Assembly: GCF_011299615.1 (NCBI RefSeq)
Contig: NZ_CP049861.1
Location: 186,001-250,000 of the forward strand
DNA: 64,000 nt
Source: Erysipelothrix sp. HDW6C
GTDB taxonomy: Bacteria > Bacillota_I > Bacilli_A > Erysipelotrichales > Erysipelotrichaceae
Direction: 5' to 3'
Both the position numbers and the translations under genes were made by a program. Shown in pieces: positions 12,110 to 21,313 of the stretch; the stretch's first letter is position 1, and each line of letters starts with the position of its first letter. Under the pieces are notes generated by a model. That model ran no database searches and was not told the origin of the DNA. It saw only the letters and a program-made list of their open reading frames with translations.

Positions 12110-13462
12110 CTATCGTTTTACAGTCGTAGTTTCAATATTTTCAACCCCACCATCATTCCCATAATACTCAATGTGAACATGTGGAAATGAGGCATCGCCA
12201 CTTTGGCCCATCACACCCAATGGGTCATGAACACTAAGGAAATCACCGACTTGAACGATTTGTGACTCAAGTTGTCCGTAAAGTGATTGATTCCCATTCT
12301 CGTGTTCAAGTACTACATAATTTCCAAAATGCGCATCCGCCGCAACTTCAATCACCTTCCCAGGTGTAATCGGATAAACATCGGCACTGAGTCTGCCATC
12401 AGTATATCCAAAGTCCATACCATCATGCCCCTCAAAGCAGCCAATGCCGCACAGCATTTCACCATCGATTAAAGGTGATAAAAATGCACCTTCACCTTTA
12501 ATATTTAGTGATTCATTTTCATTACGTGTGCTTTTAATCGGTTTTGATGTTAAGGATTGACCATTCGCATAAATTAGATTTTGTGATGTAAATCCAATCG
12601 TGCCAAGTGCAGCGATAACGCTAATTGTGACGAAGATTCCATGTTTTCTTTTATAGTGTTTTCTTTCCATAAATGCCTCGATTCTATGCATGATTTTTTT
12701 CTGTGCAGATGAGAACGCAATACCATGACGCGAGTTTTGATGTGAACGTCGTTCCAACATGGCGATAATGAGCAATCCATAATTTTTGCGTTCAGTTTGA
12801 TCCATGTCTTTAGTAACAAGTTCATCGCAGGACGTTTCCATATAATAGAACAGAGTCGACTTTATCAAAAAGAACACAGGATTGAACCAATGTATTATAT
12901 GAAGAATTAAAACTATTTGTTTTATCAGCGCATCGTGACGCTGAACGTGAATGAACTCATGGCGTAAAACAAGCCGTTTATCCGCATCGCCAATGTCATT
13001 GGGGATAATAATTTTTTGATTTCGAATTCCGTAAGTTAGAGGACCGCGAACATATGTAGAGTTATAAACATTTGATTCTCCCGTTGCGACTAAGAATTGA
13101 TCCATCCGTTTATTGAACATCCAATAGCGTAGTATATAGATTACAATGAATAACAACGTAGCAACGCTGTAAATGAACGCCAACGTATTGACACTTGCTA
13201 CCTTATCACCATGATTCACCACAGTTGCCCTCAGTGTCATTATCGGCTCAAAGGTCGACCGCACAACTTCAGTATTGACATGAATTGGTGGCATTAGGAT
13301 ATGTATTGGAATTACAAATGCTAAAACTACCACCCCCATGAGTATGTATTTCATTTTTTCACTCAGATGACGCTTTAAACAACGAGTAAGTACCATCACC
13401 ACAAGATACATCAACGTTCCATTAAACGATAATTGCAGTATCCCTTTCGTCAACTGCGTCAT
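12110..13462 (-). CDS. BlaR1-like M56 membrane protease fused to an M23 (LytM) peptidase domain
   Basis: The 450 residues combine two proteases. The N-terminal 290 residues have about four membrane helices and the cytosolic M56 zinc motif HEFIH (168-172) with a following SCDELV, as in BlaR1/MecR1, which cut the BlaI repressor. After a last helix (about 276-292) comes an extracellular domain with the M23 zinc signature: H346xxxD350 in EGHDGMDFG and HVH at 428-430. M23 enzymes cut peptidoglycan cross-bridges. BlaR1 carries a beta-lactam-binding domain here, so this may instead sense or cut wall peptides. It overlaps the blaI stop by 4 bases, so the pair is one unit. Partner and ligand are inference. 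Confidence 0.85.
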   Translation of the reverse strand: MTQLTKGILQLSFNGTLMYLVVMVLTRCLKRHLSEKMKYILMGVVVLAFVIPIHILMPPIHVNTEVVRSTFEPIMTLRATVVNHGDKVASVNTLAFIYSVATLLFIVIYILRYWMFNKRMDQFLVATGESNVYNSTYVRGPLTYGIRNQKIIIPNDIGDADKRLVLRHEFIHVQRHDALIKQIVLILHIIHWFNPVFFLIKSTLFYYMETSCDELVTKDMDQTERKNYGLLIIAMLERRSHQNSRHGIAFSSAQKKIMHRIEAFMERKHYKRKHGIFVTISVIAALGTIGFTSQNLIYANGQSLTSKPIKSTRNENESLNIKGEGAFLSPLIDGEMLCGIGCFEGHDGMDFGYTDGRLSADVYPITPGKVIEVAADAHFGNYVVLEHENGNQSLYGQLESQIVQVGDFLSVHDPLGVMGQSGDASFPHVHIEYYGNDGGVENIETTTVKR

Positions 13463-13818
13463 TTTTTATTCAACCACGCTTTCAACTCCGAAATTTCGCT
13501 GGCTGTAAGGCTATCTCCATCCACAAGTGATGCAACAAAATTACGGATTGATCCAGAGTGAACATTGGTAATGATTTTCTTGGTTTCAAACACCGAGTAT
13601 TCACTACGATTAATTGCTGCCGTGTAATAGTTGCTTCGGTTAATTTTTTCGACACGCAAATAACCCTTTTCGCTTAGACGGTTCATAAACGTCTGAACCG
13701 TTGTCGTTTTCCATCCATTATCAGATAGCAGATCTTGAATATCTTTGACCGTCACAGCTTTATTGTGCTCCCAAATCACGTTCATGATTTCAAGTTCAGT
13801 TTCACTAATATTTTTCAT
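13459..13818 (-). CDS. blaI: BlaI/MecI-family repressor
   Basis: A 119-residue winged-helix repressor starting MKNISETELEIMNVIWE and containing the family stretch WKTTTVQTFMNRLSEKGYL. BlaI-type proteins dimerise on TACA/TGTA dyads and are released when an M56 protease cuts them. The start at 13818 is set by GGAGGTC; more upstream codons lie within the operator region. The gene overlaps the M56-M23 gene by 4 bases, matching the usual blaI-blaR1 logic. Two dyads of the expected type lie directly upstream, so autorepression is likely. No beta-lactamase gene is nearby, arguing for a cell-wall rather than resistance role. Confidence 0.9.
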   Translation of the reverse strand: MKNISETELEIMNVIWEHNKAVTVKDIQDLLSDNGWKTTTVQTFMNRLSEKGYLRVEKINRSNYYTAAINRSEYSVFETKKIITNVHSGSIRNFVASLVDGDSLTASEISELKAWLNKK

Positions 13819-13829
13819 AAGACCTCCAA

Positions 13830-13878
13830 AACTACTGTTTGTAGTTATAAAACTACACCATGTAGTTTGAAGTGTCAA
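13830..13878 (-). promoter_or_regulatory. blaI promoter with two BlaI-type operators
   Basis: Two perfect dyads share half-sites: AACTAC/GTAGTT at 13830-13846 and AAACTAC/GTAGTTT at 13850-13868, each with a 5-base spacer. Centres are 21 bases apart, two helical turns, so repressor dimers would sit on one face. A TTGACA (13873-13878 on the minus strand) is 17 bases from TAGTTT, placing the second dyad over the -10 region. Confidence 0.75.
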
Positions 13879-13880
13879 AT

Positions 13881-13903
13881 AAAAAACCATCCGAAGATGG
13901 CTT
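13881..13903 (-). terminator. mreB terminator
   Basis: On the minus strand an 8-bp stem (one G-U pair) capped by a TTCG tetraloop is followed by six T. The hairpin starts right at the mreB stop codon. Confidence 0.8.
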
Positions 13904-15280: not shown

Positions 15281-16123
15281 TTATTCAATCTCACCAATGA
15301 TATTAACCAGATGGATAACAATATAGGCAAGTTCTTCTTTTTCCATGTGAATATTCATTTCTTTCTCAATAATTCCAATGATATCTTCAGCAATTTCCGC
15401 TTGCTTTTTGTAAGATGAAATAAGCAATGTATTCACCTGTTCGTTCAATGCTTTTTTATTGGACAACGCGCTTTCAATAATAAAGCGAATATGTGTTAGA
15501 AAACGTGAATAATGGACCGTGTCTTTATTCAATTCGAGTTCATATTTTTTAGTAATTAATTGCTCAATTTCCCACACGATCCCATTGAGTTTATCCAAAT
15601 TTTCTCGTGTTAGTTTATCGGAAATATTCTGAATGTGAAGGGCAATATATGACACCTCCGCATCAGGAATAATGATTGAATACTTCTCTGAAATTGAACT
15701 GCAAAGTGTCTTTGATTTTTCATACGCATCAGGATATAACGCACGTATTTCATGACTGAAAAACGAATTGATTGCTTCATCTTTAATGATACGTGTATAT
15801 GTTGCGGCAAGGTGATCTGCAAGTGTTATTAAATCAGGTGTGGTGAATTTATTAACACCATATTCAGAAATCAGTTGAATTGTATCCATAACCATGGCAA
15901 CAATTTCATCGTCAAAACCATTGATGATTCGATTAAATTCATTTGTTTGATTTGAGAGTTTGTAGGCTTTATCGTAAGGTGTCCCTTGTGGAAGAACATC
16001 GCCAGCCTTATAACCAAAACCGATACCCTTACCCATGATCACAATCTCAGAAATTGAATCGCTCCCGACTAAGGAACTGTTATTTAGGATTCGTTTTATT
16101 GTAAAATTCTTTGAAGTGTTCAT
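15281..16123 (-). CDS. LicT/BglG-family transcription antiterminator
   Basis: These proteins bind a RAT hairpin in nascent mRNA and stop an overlapping terminator from forming; PTS phosphorylation of their PRD domains controls dimerisation. The 280 residues show the RNA-binding CAT domain (about 1-58: FTIKRILNNSSLVG and VIMGKGIGFGYKAGD), PRD1 (about 65-170, with conserved histidines as in TLADHLAATY and SFFSHEI) and PRD2 (about 175-280, ending YIVIHLVNIIGEIE). Its own leader carries a RAT-like element, and the only other copy seen precedes murQ-murP-EIIA, 1.5 kb away on the other strand. I infer that it senses flux through that PTS and autoregulates. Confidence 0.92.
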   Translation of the reverse strand: MNTSKNFTIKRILNNSSLVGSDSISEIVIMGKGIGFGYKAGDVLPQGTPYDKAYKLSNQTNEFNRIINGFDDEIVAMVMDTIQLISEYGVNKFTTPDLITLADHLAATYTRIIKDEAINSFFSHEIRALYPDAYEKSKTLCSSISEKYSIIIPDAEVSYIALHIQNISDKLTRENLDKLNGIVWEIEQLITKKYELELNKDTVHYSRFLTHIRFIIESALSNKKALNEQVNTLLISSYKKQAEIAEDIIGIIEKEMNIHMEKEELAYIVIHLVNIIGEIE

Positions 16124-16210
16124 GGGTCCTCCTCGTTTGTGTAGCCGTTTTCACTAACATTATACATTCTATCACTGTTGAAGCATATTCATACGACTGT
16201 CAATCATTCA

Positions 16211-16281
16211 TAAAAAAAGCCAAGATGTTCTCTAAAAAGAACTTCTTGGCTTTTGCTCAATTGATTCATCGATAACACGCC
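16211..16281 (-). promoter_or_regulatory. RAT-like element overlapping a terminator upstream of the antiterminator gene
   Basis: Minus strand: GGC (16279-16281) pairs with GCC (16248-16250) around an internal loop GTGTTA opposite GCAAAA, and a top stem TCGAT/ATTGA. This is the RAT layout, and GCAAAAGCC resembles the conserved 3' half (GGCAAAACC) of Bacillus RATs. That half overlaps the left arm of a long near-perfect hairpin (down to 16217) followed by seven T. The two structures exclude each other, as in sac/lic/bgl leaders. Confidence 0.75.
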
Positions 16282-16289
16282 TTAGTGAG

Positions 16290-16318
16290 ATTATGTCACT
16301 ATTGAATGGGCTTGTCAA
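16290..16318 (-). promoter_or_regulatory. Promoter of the antiterminator gene
   Basis: TTGACA (16313-16318) and CATAAT (16290-16295) are 17 bases apart on the minus strand. Predicted transcription starts within a few bases of the RAT-like GGC, leaving almost no other leader. The promoter is just beyond the stop of the upstream oxidoreductase gene. Confidence 0.75.
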
Positions 16319-16350
16319 TGGCTCACCCATTAGAAAATATCTATCAAGAA

Positions 16351-16920
16351 TTAGGCAACCTCATAACACTTTTGTAACCATCTTTCGATTTTCTCTGGTT
16401 TTCGACCTTTTATATAGGTCATGCGAATATGCTTTTTCACACGAATACCGGTCATGATTCTTAGGACCTGATTCTTAAGAACATTCCCATAGTCTTGAAG
16501 TGCAACCACTCGGAAAATTGGTGGAGTATCATCCGTTGTAATCAAGGACGCTGTTTTCCCTTTCAAGTGGCCTTGCGGAAAGAGACCTTTGAAGTTGTAG
16601 CTGAACCCTGTTGTAAAAACTTTTTCCAAATATCCTTTCATAATAGCAGGCATGGATCCCCACCAAATTGGATAAATGAATATGATATGGTCCGCCCAAC
16701 TTACTTGATCTCGATATTTTTTCATGTCTTCGCGGTATTGCATGTCGCGACGCCGGTTTTGTGCATCAAAGCGGAGGATCGGATCAAAGTTATCCTGATA
16801 CAAATCCAGTGTCACAACTGTATTGCCACGTTTTTCTTGACCCGCCTTTACCCTTTTGTATATCTCATAATTGAGACTTCTGTGATTAGGGTAAGCAAAT
16901 ATTATTAAAGTATTTTTCAT
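16351..16920 (-). CDS. NAD(P)H-dependent flavodoxin-like oxidoreductase (YwrO/MdaB-type)
   Basis: A 189-residue flavodoxin-fold quinone or general reductase expected to use FMN or FAD and NAD(P)H. Family motifs: AYPNHRSLNYEIYKRV at the start (phosphate-binding loop), ADHIIFIYPIWWGSMPAIMKGYLEKVF in the middle (the flavin-contacting IWWxxxPAilKG stretch) and FSYNFKGLFPQGHLKGK. It lies 7 bases downstream of a MerR regulator, a common pairing in which the regulator controls the reductase. Substrate unknown; a quinone, azo or aldehyde-stress role is possible. Confidence 0.88.
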   Translation of the reverse strand: MKNTLIIFAYPNHRSLNYEIYKRVKAGQEKRGNTVVTLDLYQDNFDPILRFDAQNRRRDMQYREDMKKYRDQVSWADHIIFIYPIWWGSMPAIMKGYLEKVFTTGFSYNFKGLFPQGHLKGKTASLITTDDTPPIFRVVALQDYGNVLKNQVLRIMTGIRVKKHIRMTYIKGRKPEKIERWLQKCYEVA

Positions 16921-16927
16921 TCCTTAC

Positions 16928-17347
16928 TTATTCAAGTACAGATTCATAAGCCTCGCCAATGATTTGATCGATTCCCTCACACGAGTCCAACGCATCTACT
17001 TGTTTCAACGTACTGTCGAGCATCTTAACAAGGTTGTTGAGATCATGAATTTGTTGGATCAAGTTCTCTCGTTTTTCGTGTAGGAACTTCTTAGATGCCG
17101 CCAATGAAGCGTGTGGATTCCCTAAATCACGGCGGTTTTTAAGTACAATTTTTATCTCATCTAAAGAGAAATTCCCGCGTTTCAACATCAATACAAGCTG
17201 CAAATCCAGATAATCAGCCTTAGAATATCTTCGATAACCATTTTCAAGACGTTGTGGGCACACCAAACCGAGTGTGTCGTAATAGCGGAGTGTTTGCTTA
17301 GAAATATTCATGGTTTTCGCCATGGATTCGATTGTATAATTATCCAT
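16928..17347 (-). CDS. MerR-family transcriptional regulator
   Basis: A 139-residue regulator with an N-terminal winged helix (MAKTMNISKQTLRYYDTLGLV and NGYRRYSKADY, the classic MerR RYYxxxGLx and YRxYs motifs), then a helical dimerisation region with a coiled coil (about 80-115), and a short C-terminus. It lacks the cysteine pattern of metal sensors (single Cys near residue 123). It is followed by its likely target reductase; a MerR-type dyad covers its own promoter. Confidence 0.9.
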   Translation of the reverse strand: MDNYTIESMAKTMNISKQTLRYYDTLGLVCPQRLENGYRRYSKADYLDLQLVLMLKRGNFSLDEIKIVLKNRRDLGNPHASLAASKKFLHEKRENLIQQIHDLNNLVKMLDSTLKQVDALDSCEGIDQIIGEAYESVLE

Positions 17348-17373
17348 ACTTTTTCCTTTCTGGAGTTACAATA

Positions 17374-17395
17374 ACATTATAGTCGACTTTAATGT
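17374..17395 (-). promoter_or_regulatory. MerR-type operator over the merR promoter
   Basis: A 22-base near-perfect dyad (ACATTA-AGT / ACT-TAATGT around a central CG, one mismatched position) lies 27 bases before the merR start. A TATAAT (17376-17381 on the minus strand) is inside it; the -35 match (near 17398) is weak, as usual for MerR promoters that need distortion by the regulator. Confidence 0.6.
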
Positions 17396-17551
17396 CAAGT
17401 CATTTCCAGTCTCTAAATCTATCATACGTATTTTTTTTGATGCGTCATGCTCACTGTCACAAACAGATTAATTCATGTACTCAACAGTCGGGTTTTACAC
17501 ATTCCAGTAACATTATTTCAACCTTTTCACATTTAATCTGAAACATATTTG

Positions 17552-17580
17552 TTGACAAACTTATAACGAAATGCAATTAT
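17552..17580 (+). promoter_or_regulatory. Promoter of the murQ-murP-EIIA operon
   Basis: TTGACA (17552-17557) is followed after 17 bases by AATTAT (17575-17580). The predicted start is at the RAT-like element, matching the design in front of the antiterminator gene. Upstream to 17396 I see nothing else. Confidence 0.6.
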
Positions 17581-17587
17581 AGACTTA

Positions 17588-17653
17588 GGCGTGCAATCTT
17601 AACGGAGCAAGAGCCAAAGTTATCGTTTTTTATGATACACTTTGGCTCTTTTT
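17588..17653 (+). promoter_or_regulatory. RAT-like element and overlapping terminator in the murQ leader
   Basis: GGC (17588-17590) pairs with GCC (17613-17615) around GTGCAA opposite GCAAGA, with a small top stem TCT/GGA. GCAAGAGCC resembles the conserved 3' half of sac/lic RATs. Overlapping it is a hairpin with a 10-bp perfect outer stem (17611-17620 with 17639-17648) followed by five T. RAT and terminator cannot coexist, so the operon should need a bound antiterminator. Confidence 0.75.
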
Positions 17654-17686
17654 CTGTTTTGATGCTCGAGAGGGAGGAGCGTTTCA

Positions 17687-18574
17687 ATGATTGATTTATC
17701 AAAATTCACCACAGAACAACGCAATCCAGATACACTGAATTTGGATTCAATGACCCCATTAGAGATTGTCACTGTGATGAACCATGAAGATGCAAAAGTC
17801 GCAACTGCAGTACAGTCAGAGTTGCCGAAAATTGCATCACTGGTAGCACTCGTATCGGATGCGTTCCGTAATTCCGGACGCTTAATATACATGGGTGCAG
17901 GTACAAGTGGGCGACTCGGTGTCCTTGATGCCGTTGAATGTCCACCAACTTTCGGCGTTGATTCTGATGTTGTTATCGGACTTATAGCCGGTGGCGAGGG
18001 TGCATTCATCCAAGCAGTCGAAGGAGCAGAAGATAGTATTGATGCAGGTGTTAACGATTTGAAGTCTCTTGAACTTACCGATCGTGACATCGTAGTCGGA
18101 CTTGCTGCAAGTGGCCGTACCCCATATGTTTTAGGTGGATTGGATTATGCACATGCAGTAGGTTGTAAAACAGCAGCCATTGCATGCAATCGCAATTCCA
18201 TCATCGGCCAACACGCGGATATCGCAATTGAAGTTGTTGTTGGCCCAGAAGTGCTAACTGGTTCTACGCGTCTCAAAGCGGGAACTGCTCAGAAATTGGT
18301 CCTAAACATGATTACTACCGCAGCTATGGTGGGCGTTGGAAAAGTCTACCAAAACCTTATGGTAGATGTCATGCAAACAAACGACAAATTGGTTGTTCGT
18401 GGACAAAATATTGTTATGGCAGCTACGGATGCTGATCGCACGACCGCAACACAAACACTCGAACTTGCCGGTGGTAGTGTAAAACTTGCGATTGTTATGA
18501 TTCTACATCACTGTGATGCCAACAGGGGGCGTCAGCTACTTGCTGACCACGCTGATCATATCAGCGCACTATAA
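17687..18574 (+). CDS. murQ: N-acetylmuramic acid 6-phosphate etherase
   Basis: MurQ removes the lactyl ether of MurNAc-6-phosphate to give GlcNAc-6-phosphate and D-lactate. The 295-residue SIS-domain protein matches the family (about 300), with MGAGTSGRLGVLDAVECPPTF near residue 65, VGLAASGRTPYVLGGL and STRLKAGTAQKLVLNM, all MurQ hallmarks. GGGAGGAGC precedes the ATG. First gene of a three-gene operon with murP and an EIIA, so imported MurNAc is processed at once. Expression is likely governed by antitermination. Confidence 0.95.
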   Translation: MIDLSKFTTEQRNPDTLNLDSMTPLEIVTVMNHEDAKVATAVQSELPKIASLVALVSDAFRNSGRLIYMGAGTSGRLGVLDAVECPPTFGVDSDVVIGLIAGGEGAFIQAVEGAEDSIDAGVNDLKSLELTDRDIVVGLAASGRTPYVLGGLDYAHAVGCKTAAIACNRNSIIGQHADIAIEVVVGPEVLTGSTRLKAGTAQKLVLNMITTAAMVGVGKVYQNLMVDVMQTNDKLVVRGQNIVMAATDADRTTATQTLELAGGSVKLAIVMILHHCDANRGRQLLADHADHISAL

Positions 18575-18587
18575 AAGGAGAAACAAA

Positions 18588-20003
18588 ATGGAAAACTTAG
18601 ATTTAGCGAAAGTAATTCTTGATGTTACCGGTGGAAAAGAAAATATCAGTTCCGCGCAACATTGCATGACTCGCTTACGTCTCAAAATTAAAGACGAGTC
18701 CAAGGTTGATCAAGAAGCATTGAAGAATACCGATGGTGTATTGGGTGTTGTCCAAAGTGATACACTTCAAATTGTAATTGGACCAGGACGTGTTAAAAAG
18801 ATCTATGATATCTTTGTTGACGACCTTGGTGTTGCTCGTGGTGGTGAAGCATCATGGGAAGAAAATAAAGATGCCATGAAGGCAGGCCAAAAACAATCGC
18901 CATTCAAAGCAGCTCTTAAAACAATCTCAAATATTTTCATTCCTATGATTCCTGCAATCATCGCAGCTGGATTATTCAATGGATTTGCCAGTTTGATTGG
19001 TCAATTCTTCCTTGATGCTGAAACAACAACAGGATTCTGGTACATTCTTAAAACACTCTTCTCTCTAATTGGTACTGGATTCCTCGGATACTTTGCAATT
19101 TATACGGGTATCAATGCTGCTCGTGAGTTCCGCGGAACAGAAGCTCTTGGTGGGATGATTGGTGCAATGTCAATTGCCACACCACTTATTGCACTTTCCA
19201 CTACTCTTGGTCTCTATAATGCTGACCAACCGCTTGAATCAATCCTCACTACAGGTAAAGGTGGTATTATCGGTGTCATTATCGGTGTATGGATTATGTC
19301 TAAGATCGAGCGTGCAATTCGTAAAGTTGTTCCTGATGTTCTTGATTTAATCGTGACACCATTCCTAACACTTCTCATTTCAGGAGCAATCTTCGTTCTT
19401 GGAATCATGCCAATTGCCGGATTCCTTTCTGACTGGTTGGTGGTCGCACTTAACGTACTCATTAACTCTCCAAATCCTATTGTCAGTGTTATTTCAGGAT
19501 TCGTGCTTGCTGCAGTCTTTCTACCAATGGTCCTACTTGGACTTCATCATGGATTAATTCCAATCTATGCGATTCAATTAGAAACACTTGGCGGCGTTAC
19601 CCTCTTCCCTGTTCTCGCAATGGCTGGTGCTGGTCAAGTTGGTGCTGCAATCGCAATCTACTTTAAAGCTAAAAAAGCAGGAAATACAAGTCTTACCAAG
19701 ATTATTACCGGTGCTTTACCAGCAGGATTCTTAGGTGTTGGTGAGCCACTCATTTACGGGGTAACATTACCACTTGGAAAACCCTTTATCACAGCCGGTC
19801 TAGGTGCTGGATTTGGTGGTGCCTATGTCATGTTGATGAAAGTTATGGCAGTTGCATGGGGTCCCTCTGGCCTTGTTGCGATTCCATTAATGAAAACATC
19901 GGCAATGATGCTTCACTTCTTTATTGGATTGGTTATCGCATATGTAGCTGGGTTTATTATTACTTCAGTTATCATGAAGCCAAAGGACGTCGTCCAAAAC
20001 TAG
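18588..20003 (+). CDS. murP: PTS EIIBC, MurNAc-type (MurP-like)
   Basis: Sugar permease and phosphotransferase of the glucose-superfamily PTS. The 471 residues have an N-terminal EIIB domain with phosphocysteine C26 (AQHCMTRLRL) and a C-terminal EIIC of about ten membrane helices (about 105-465), with GLHHGLIPIYAIQ and the conserved GVGEPLIYGVTLPL loop. No EIIA domain is fused, as in MurP and TreB. The assignment to MurNAc comes from the murQ neighbour; sequence alone shows only the family. Start at 18588 follows AAAAGGAG, 13 bases after murQ. Confidence 0.88.
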   Translation: MENLDLAKVILDVTGGKENISSAQHCMTRLRLKIKDESKVDQEALKNTDGVLGVVQSDTLQIVIGPGRVKKIYDIFVDDLGVARGGEASWEENKDAMKAGQKQSPFKAALKTISNIFIPMIPAIIAAGLFNGFASLIGQFFLDAETTTGFWYILKTLFSLIGTGFLGYFAIYTGINAAREFRGTEALGGMIGAMSIATPLIALSTTLGLYNADQPLESILTTGKGGIIGVIIGVWIMSKIERAIRKVVPDVLDLIVTPFLTLLISGAIFVLGIMPIAGFLSDWLVVALNVLINSPNPIVSVISGFVLAAVFLPMVLLGLHHGLIPIYAIQLETLGGVTLFPVLAMAGAGQVGAAIAIYFKAKKAGNTSLTKIITGALPAGFLGVGEPLIYGVTLPLGKPFITAGLGAGFGGAYVMLMKVMAVAWGPSGLVAIPLMKTSAMMLHFFIGLVIAYVAGFIITSVIMKPKDVVQN

Positions 20004-20056: not shown

Positions 20057-20533
20057 ATGTTCTTTAAGAAAAAACAAAAATTCACAGATACTGATGTCGT
20101 TGCTGTTTGCGATGGTGAGGTCATTGCCATGAGCGCAGTTAACGATCAGGTATTCAGTTCAAAAGCCATGGGGGATGGTTTTGCAGTAAGACCTTCCAGC
20201 GGTACAGTATATGCACCCATGAATGGAACAATTGCTTCTATTTTCCCTACAAAACATGCCATTACCATGACAAGCACAAGCGGTCATGAAATCATGATTC
20301 ATATGGGAATTGACACCGTCAATCTTGGCGGTGAAGGATTTAAAGTCCACGTTCAGGAAGGTCAAACAATTACTGCTGGATCCCCAATTGCTGAAATGGA
20401 CTTAAAATCGATTACACCTCAAGTACCCTCGACCGACGTCATCGTTGTCTTCTTCAATTTAAAAGAAAATGAATCTGTCATAACAACTAGCGCGCATGCA
20501 GTAGGCGGCAAGGATGTCATATTCACGTTTTAG
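20057..20533 (+). CDS. crr: PTS EIIA, glucose (Crr) family
   Basis: A 158-residue soluble EIIA of the glucose family. The two active-site histidines are visible at H67 (TKHAITM) and H82 (IMIHMGIDTVNL), with the same 15-residue spacing as in E. coli Crr. It follows murP by 53 bases, with TGGAGG before the ATG, and presumably donates phosphate to MurP Cys26. It could also feed other EIIBC proteins. The operon ends at a strong terminator. The symbol marks the family, not proven regulatory duties. Confidence 0.92.
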   Translation: MFFKKKQKFTDTDVVAVCDGEVIAMSAVNDQVFSSKAMGDGFAVRPSSGTVYAPMNGTIASIFPTKHAITMTSTSGHEIMIHMGIDTVNLGGEGFKVHVQEGQTITAGSPIAEMDLKSITPQVPSTDVIVVFFNLKENESVITTSAHAVGGKDVIFTF

Positions 20534-20540
20534 ACAACGC

Positions 20541-20580
20541 AAAGGAAGGCTAATCATTCTACGATTAGCCTTCCTTTTTT
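20541..20580. terminator. Bidirectional terminator between EIIA and cutC
   Basis: A 15-bp perfect stem (20541-20555 with 20563-20577) and 7-base loop, with T runs on the plus side and A runs on the other. It ends the plus-strand murQ operon and, two bases from the cutC stop, the converging minus-strand cluster. Confidence 0.9.
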
Positions 20581-21313
20581 ATTTAACCGTTTCAAGAAAC
20601 GTTTTTAATTTTTTTGTATCGACACCTTCATAGTCACCACTCTCAGAATAAGAATAGGATACGGCATCGCTTGCAGTCGTTGGATCGATAAACCAGCCTT
20701 TAAATGATGAATGAACTTGGCTAATGCCCGTTTTTGCTACGATTTCATTTGCATTATCCACGTTAACGCCTGCTCCAACACAAAATTCAATCTGTGATCC
20801 GTACTCAGTCTGTAATTTAGCAAGTAATGCTATTCCTTGATCCGCACTGCTCGCTTGACCACTCGTGAGCACTCTGTCGACACCACAAGCAATCAAATCT
20901 TCAATCGCTTCAATGGGATCGCTTGCCCGATCAAATGCACGGTGGAAAATCGCCTCCACCCCTTTTGTGTGTGCAAGTTCAACAAAGCGGCGGGTCAGTT
21001 CTTTATCCACATTGCTGAATGCATCCAAAAATCCAAAAACCAATCCATCACTACCATGTTCTAATAAATACTTCGCATCGGTAATCATTGTTTGGATTTC
21101 ATACGCATTGTAGTGAAAGCCACCTGGGCGCGCCCTAACCATTGTGATAATTGGTAACGTTGTAATTTTTTTTGCTTCAATTAAGGTTGCGATACTCGGT
21201 GTAAGTCCTCCCAAGTGAATTGCGTTGTTCAGTTCAATGCGGTCGGCACCACATTGTTGAGCAACTGCGCAATCTTCTAAAGAACCCGCACATACTTCTA
21301 CATATACTGTCAT
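20579..21313 (-). CDS. cutC: CutC-family TIM-barrel protein
   Basis: The 244 residues match CutC: start VYVEVCAGSLEDCAVAQQCG, then ADRIELNNAIHLGGLTPS, MVRARPGGFHYN and the HRAFD motif. CutC was named for copper tolerance in E. coli, but its biochemical activity is not settled and it is a TIM-barrel sometimes encoded near sugar genes. It is the last gene of the glycoasparagine-type cluster, 2 bases after aspA, so a metabolic role is plausible here. That role is inference. Confidence 0.9.
   Translation of the reverse strand: MTVYVEVCAGSLEDCAVAQQCGADRIELNNAIHLGGLTPSIATLIEAKKITTLPIITMVRARPGGFHYNAYEIQTMITDAKYLLEHGSDGLVFGFLDAFSNVDKELTRRFVELAHTKGVEAIFHRAFDRASDPIEAIEDLIACGVDRVLTSGQASSADQGIALLAKLQTEYGSQIEFCVGAGVNVDNANEIVAKTGISQVHSSFKGWFIDPTTASDAVSYSYSESGDYEGVDTKKLKTFLETVK

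Follow-up and report, generated by a model that had tools for sequence, protein, structure and literature searches.

A GlcT/NagY-like transcription antiterminator of Erysipelothrix sp. HDW6C very probably controls uptake and breakdown of the cell-wall sugar N-acetylmuramic acid (MurNAc) by transcription antitermination, as judged from comparison of the genes and their leader sequences. The window, that is, the whole stretch of DNA analysed here, covers 64,000 nucleotides of contig NZ_CP049861.1. The antiterminator gene lies on its minus strand (15281..16123) and encodes a CAT-PRD-PRD protein of 280 amino acids. The plus strand carries murQ for N-acetylmuramic acid 6-phosphate etherase (17687..18574), a murP-like gene for a PTS EIIBC (18588..20003) and a gene for a stand-alone EIIA of the glucose family (20057..20533; PF00358, 2.7e-47). 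Flavodoxin-like and MerR genes separate the antiterminator from murQ, and the two are thus not adjacent. The sequence-only reading had claimed that the antiterminator controls both the MurNAc operon and itself. This is very probably right in view of the shared RAT leaders, the matches to a covariance model (R2) and the pairing retained in relatives, with autoregulation seen only in the HDW6C genome.

Both transcription units start with a leader in which a RAT overlaps an intrinsic terminator, the arrangement known from targets of BglG/SacY antiterminators. The antiterminator gene has a sigma-70-like promoter on the minus strand (16290..16318; TTGACA at 16318-16313, 17 bases, CATAAT at 16295-16290; 11/12), and murQ-murP-EIIA has another on the plus strand (17552..17580; TTGACA at 17552-17557, 17 bases, AATTAT at 17575-17580; 10/12). 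A TG stands ahead of the second hexamer in both. As had been claimed, these near-consensus promoters would start transcription at a GGCGTG element: the predicted +1 positions (near 16283 on the minus strand and near 17587 on the plus strand) fall within about three bases of it in both leaders. The RAT hairpins occupy 16281-16248 of the minus strand (GGCGTGTTATCGATGAATCAATTGAGCAAAAGCC) and 17588-17615 of the plus strand (GGCGTGCAATCTTAACGGAGCAAGAGCC), and both have the form GGCGTG...GCAARAGCC. The terminator of the antiterminator leader, with its U tract, extends over 16209..16253 (minus strand; stem 16253-16216) and shares the last 6 bases of its RAT, and that of the murQ leader (17609..17655, plus strand; core about 17609-17650) overlaps the 3′ strand of its RAT. 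The predicted folds are −24.0 kcal/mol for the antiterminator leader and −27.4 kcal/mol for the murQ leader, and those of the RATs alone are −7.6 and −4.9 kcal/mol, respectively. The overlap and these folds agree with the further claim that the 3′ half of the element forms an arm of the terminator. Because the last bases of the RAT double as the foot of a strong terminator, RAT and terminator are mutually exclusive. An Rfam scan of the region gave no family over its gathering score. A perfect TATAAT is also present between the terminator and the antiterminator gene (16150-16200, minus strand), without a good −35 hexamer; it could provide basal, terminator-free expression of the antiterminator.

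Terminators are common, and the leaders could in principle represent protein-free attenuation, or terminators of the upstream genes that resemble RATs by chance. A loose RAT pattern, GGNNTGNNAN{7,28}GCAARANCC, indeed yields chance matches: it gave two matches here and two in the reversed control, which is not significant alone, and across relatives its matches were again mostly chance, with a similar number in the reversed control. For this reason a stricter pattern and covariance models were used instead. The stricter pattern, GCGTGNNATCN{3,16}GAGCAARAGC, has three matches in 395 genomes of the class and none in the control. Two of them are in this genome and the third is in a MurNAc operon of another genus (G029). 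Over about 85,000 species the strict pattern matched 53 stretches, most of them by chance, and a match was accepted only where genes for an antiterminator and a PTS lay close by. For model R2 the window was left out, and its eight training leaders all came from other organisms. In a scan of the whole genome (2.36 Mb) it ranked the two RATs of the window first and second, at 59.6 bits for murQ and 51.8 bits for the antiterminator (E-values 1e-8 and 5e-7), and the third match had 21.4 bits (E 1.2). The apical stem varies in sequence over nine RATs and its pairing stays: it has 34 consecutive pairs against 22.3 with shuffled partners, and 34 was reached in 1 of 100,000 shuffles, figures that serve as a guide and not as a strict probability since the RAT sequences are few and related. 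The outer lower pair occurs in G-C, A-U and G-U forms and is broken once. The specific matches of a model made without the window and the co-varying apical stem argue against leaders that are not RATs, as do the promoter-RAT-terminator spacing kept in several species and the co-occurrence of RAT and antiterminator, and we regard such leaders as scarcely credible.

The protein has the domain order of the BglG/SacY (CAT-PRD) antiterminators, a CAT RNA-binding domain (PF03123, CAT_RBD, 1.8e-12) followed by two PRD stretches (PF00874, 4.7e-29), all over the Pfam cut-offs, and phosphorylatable histidines are present in both PRD1 and PRD2. All four PRD histidines (H104, H163, H211 and H271) were found by alignment; H104, H211 and H271 are invariant across ten aligned antiterminators. 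The second histidine of PRD1 is replaced by Tyr in four of the ten, those of E. anatis, E. aquatica and an uncultured Erysipelothrix (G011) among them, so phospho-control may vary among relatives. The protein had been called LicT-type, a label that the NCBIfam models do not bear out: the GlcT equivalog (NF047357) is the best family with 181 bits (cut-off 320) and the LicT equivalog (NF046042) follows with 147 bits (cut-off 300), neither cut-off being reached. Orthologs of the antiterminator likewise score higher with GlcT than with LicT and pass neither cut-off. The nearest solved chain in the PDB is that of GlcT (3rio).

By its sequence and that of its RAT, the antiterminator looks more like GlcT and NagY than LicT. 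The RAT of Bacillus subtilis ptsG, CGTGTTA...GCATGAGT, has the same outline as the corresponding part of the window RAT, CGTGTTA...GCAAAAGC; a search of the phylum sample found no true GlcT over the cut-off. The GlcT-ptsG system shares the CAT-PRD-PRD architecture and provides both the best full-length model and the best PDB chain. However, the target in the window is the MurNAc operon and not the glucose PTS, the protein scores below the GlcT cut-off, its own gene has a RAT, and the lower stem is GGC/GCC. LicT-bglP/licS of B. subtilis is alike in its CAT-PRD-PRD fold and in the overlap of RAT and terminator, but in its RAT (consensus GGATTGTTACTG...CAGGCAAAACC) the lower stem consists of two pairs and the 3′ strand, CAAAACC, of seven bases, where the window RAT has three pairs and eight bases. 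A sac/lic shape had been proposed for the leaders, of which the RAT-terminator design stands, whereas the third lower pair (GGC/GCC) and the eight-base 3′ strand CAARAGCC depart from it. NagY of Enterococcus faecalis (nagY-nagE / hylA) is a BglG/SacY-family antiterminator of an amino-sugar PTS with a RAT overlapping the terminator, positive autoregulation and a second, unlinked target gene (PMC9981650). The window system resembles it in all of these respects; the differences are that the sugar of NagY is GlcNAc, not MurNAc, and that GCRUGGA closes the RAT region of NagY. The NagY system additionally involves RNase III (PMC12502629).

A difference in the RNA-binding domain accompanies that in the RAT. 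All six antiterminators with a GCAARAGC RAT have NNSS in the CAT domain, and LicT-like ones have NNN, the third position of which is Asn in LicT-like proteins and Ser in all Mur antiterminators. Two related systems with the RAT GGCGTGTGAT...GCATTAGCC have a CAT motif that differs from both NNSS and NNN. These sequence correspondences suggest a matched protein-RNA specificity of CAT and RAT. In the two related systems (L207:2481-6123 and L079:4855-10066), the RAT stands before one or more MurP-like EIIBC genes, and a PHP-domain protein, an EIIA and the antiterminator are also included. In Clostridium gasigenes (L173:1600-1628) a RAT of the same class as that of the window precedes nagE, beside a GlcT-like antiterminator and an EIIA; the RAT alone therefore does not specify MurNAc.

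Which antiterminator serves which PTS can be approached by elimination. Three CAT antiterminators are encoded in the genome, and a glucose-superfamily EIIB is clear at three places and falls below threshold at a fourth. The other two antiterminators are LicT-like (384 and 269 bits with the NCBIfam LicT model) and lie in operons of their own with their own EIIBC, one a LicT-like bgl operon and the other of the order EIIA-antiterminator-EIIBC, in which the RAT, GGGTTGTTACTGCTAAGAGCAAGCAAAACCT, has the canonical form GGGTTGTTACTG...AAGCAAAACCT. The RAT of this third paralog matches the LicT consensus. Since these two pairs are each linked, the antiterminator and the EIIBC of the window are left to each other. 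A scan with model R1, which was built on the RATs of the window, detected no RAT of the window type at the two paralog loci, and RATs of this class were found in the genome at two units only, the antiterminator gene and murQ-murP-EIIA. One could still imagine that the antiterminator controls its own gene and something else, and that a LicT-like paralog allows read-through into murQ: the antiterminator and murQ are not neighbours in the window, and cross-talk among antiterminators is known in this family. This is highly improbable, because the two RATs of the window are of one class and those of the paralogs of another, and because RAT and antiterminator stand directly beside murP or murQ in relatives.

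A close ortholog of the antiterminator (41-55% identity) was found in 5 of 13 Erysipelothrix genomes, and RAT scans were positive in exactly those five, where the RAT precedes murQ, murP or a gene of the beta-lactamase fold. The eight genomes lacking the ortholog gave only a chance-like pattern match (G004) and a weak 31-bit model match (G005), the latter of which belongs to another antiterminator system. The arrangement varies among species. In G011, murQ, murP, the antiterminator gene and mupG form a single operon with a RAT before murQ, and the order antiterminator-RAT-murP is found in both E. anatis and E. aquatica. Two RATs occur in E. inopinata, one heading murP and the other a divergent gene of 782 residues, and Erysipelotrichaceae SUG468 has the order EIIA-antiterminator-RAT-murP-murQ-RpiR gene-...-anmK. 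A RAT heading the antiterminator gene itself was seen only in HDW6C; the gene has none in E. anatis and E. aquatica. A second RAT-terminator (AGCGTGCTAATCTAGTAGATGCAAGAGCT) was noticed in G011 (L073:4315-4379); it lies upstream of the RAT of murQ at a distance of about 300 bases, with no clear gene between.

The regulon appears to reach beyond murQ and murP. Genes of the PF00144 beta-lactamase-fold family, to which PBP4B presumably belongs, are headed by a RAT in E. inopinata and also in E. anatis and E. aquatica, in the last two far from the antiterminator. PF00144 genes also lie near murQ in two further loci (L087 and L089), and those of the HDW6C genome have no RAT in their leaders. In E. 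coli, the PBP4B gene (yfeW) ends the murQ operon (PMC5061867). RATs before murQ, murP and unlinked PF00144 genes thus outline a muropeptide regulon that is controlled in trans.

The circuit would work as follows. Transcription would start almost exactly at the RAT, and without the protein the nascent RNA would form the terminator and thereby engage the RAT's 3′ strand. In the absence of substrate, phospho-EIIB of MurP would phosphorylate PRD1 and keep the antiterminator inactive. Once MurP passes its phosphate to incoming sugar, EIIB would stop phosphorylating PRD1, and the active antiterminator would dimerise and hold the RAT closed, so that polymerase reads into murQ-murP-EIIA. Read-through into the antiterminator's own gene would add positive feedback in HDW6C. 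RNA binding and control by EIIB of MurP are predicted by analogy with GlcT, in which phosphorylation of PRD1 by EIIB inactivates the protein and sugar import releases it (PMC12445079), and with NagY (PMC9981650); the PRD histidines that such control requires are present.

The inducer would be MurNAc or the disaccharide MurNAc-GlcNAc. MurQ is assigned firmly, with 400 bits against the cut-off of 302 (TIGR00274). For the EIIBC the MurNAc model (NF007152) is the best with 325 bits, below its cut-off of 516, and a sucrose EIIBC model is almost equal with 320 bits. The name MurP is given from the operon context and from its place in a MurP clade, and the protein is 70-75% identical to the MurP of relatives. 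It is possible, though we consider it the lesser chance, that the same circuit responds not to MurNAc itself, with the EIIBC importing a MurNAc disaccharide or another sugar. MurP of Staphylococcus aureus imports MurNAc-GlcNAc and works with MupG (PMC6262408). In the G011 operon the gene after the antiterminator encodes MupG_N, which also occurs at the second murQ locus of HDW6C, and the close sucrose score points the same way. On the other side, MurQ heads the operon and acts on MurNAc-6P, so at least a source of MurNAc-6P is expected, and the best model for MurP remains the MurNAc one.

The antitermination circuit had been contrasted with the control of MurNAc genes by MurR, and the contrast is genuine: MurR of E. 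coli represses its targets until MurNAc-6P relieves the repression (PMC5061867). MurR, of the RpiR family and with homologs in S. aureus and B. subtilis, governs the same catabolic genes and the MurNAc-6P route via MurP and MurQ, and the E. coli operon likewise includes a PBP4B gene. The difference is that MurR is a DNA-binding repressor sensing cytoplasmic MurNAc-6P, whereas the regulator here would be an RNA antiterminator reading PTS flux. No adjacent RpiR-family regulator was recognised among the neighbouring genes (about 12-24 kb of the window), so the operon lacks the make-up of a MurR-controlled one. The MurP of HDW6C groups with other Erysipelothrix MurP and with those of three genomes of related genera (G036, G018 and G015), in a clade of ten members with support of 97/99. 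In the other Erysipelothrix the partner of MurP is the antiterminator, and in the three related genomes an RpiR gene flanks the orthologous murQ-murP. Since orthologous genes have a MurR-type regulator instead, the regulator was swapped, and we infer that the repressor came first.

A second murQ of the genome is found at 1,433,599, in the company of anmK, mupG and a gene for an RpiR regulator. This locus (L081, 1429000-1440000) encodes an EIIC, MupG, the RpiR regulator, the second MurQ (49% identical) and AnmK, and scanning it with R1 revealed no RAT. The locus recurs in E. inopinata, whereas in most Erysipelothrix the sole murQ is about as distant as this second one. With an RpiR-linked murQ alongside the antiterminator system, both wirings coexist in one cell. 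We lean towards the view that in Erysipelothrix and some relatives MurR was replaced by a dedicated antiterminator that has a RAT subclass to itself (GGCGTG...GCAARAGCC, CAT NNSS) and would read PTS flux at the membrane while the RpiR-linked murQ-mupG-anmK reads cytoplasmic MurNAc-6P, making two parallel circuits with different inputs.

Each component of this system belongs to a known type; what looks new is their combination, with the MurNAc target, the regulator swap and the subclass of RAT. No report of antitermination of MurNAc genes was found in the open literature, subscription papers being outside the search. MurNAc recycling ties the turnover of the cell wall both to the supply of carbon and to the sensing of wall fragments by the host. 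If the circuit operates as proposed, these bacteria would detect external MurNAc as it passes through the PTS rather than from the MurNAc-6P level, and thus uptake would not be induced by internal recycling alone. The system would also be a clear case of one gene module in which an RNA antiterminator has taken the place of a transcription repressor, and would provide a new, apparently orthogonal CAT-RAT pair of use for a recognition code and as a tool part.

Two features of the neighbourhood may be added. A convergent CutC-family gene (20579-21313) lies just past murQ-murP-EIIA, and in a different genus another CutC-family gene is directly 3′ of murQ (L089:5540-6241). At 12110-13890 of the minus strand, a gene for a BlaI-like repressor is followed by one for a BlaR1-type M56 membrane protein, the C-terminal part of which is an M23 (LytM-type) peptidase domain and not a beta-lactam sensor.
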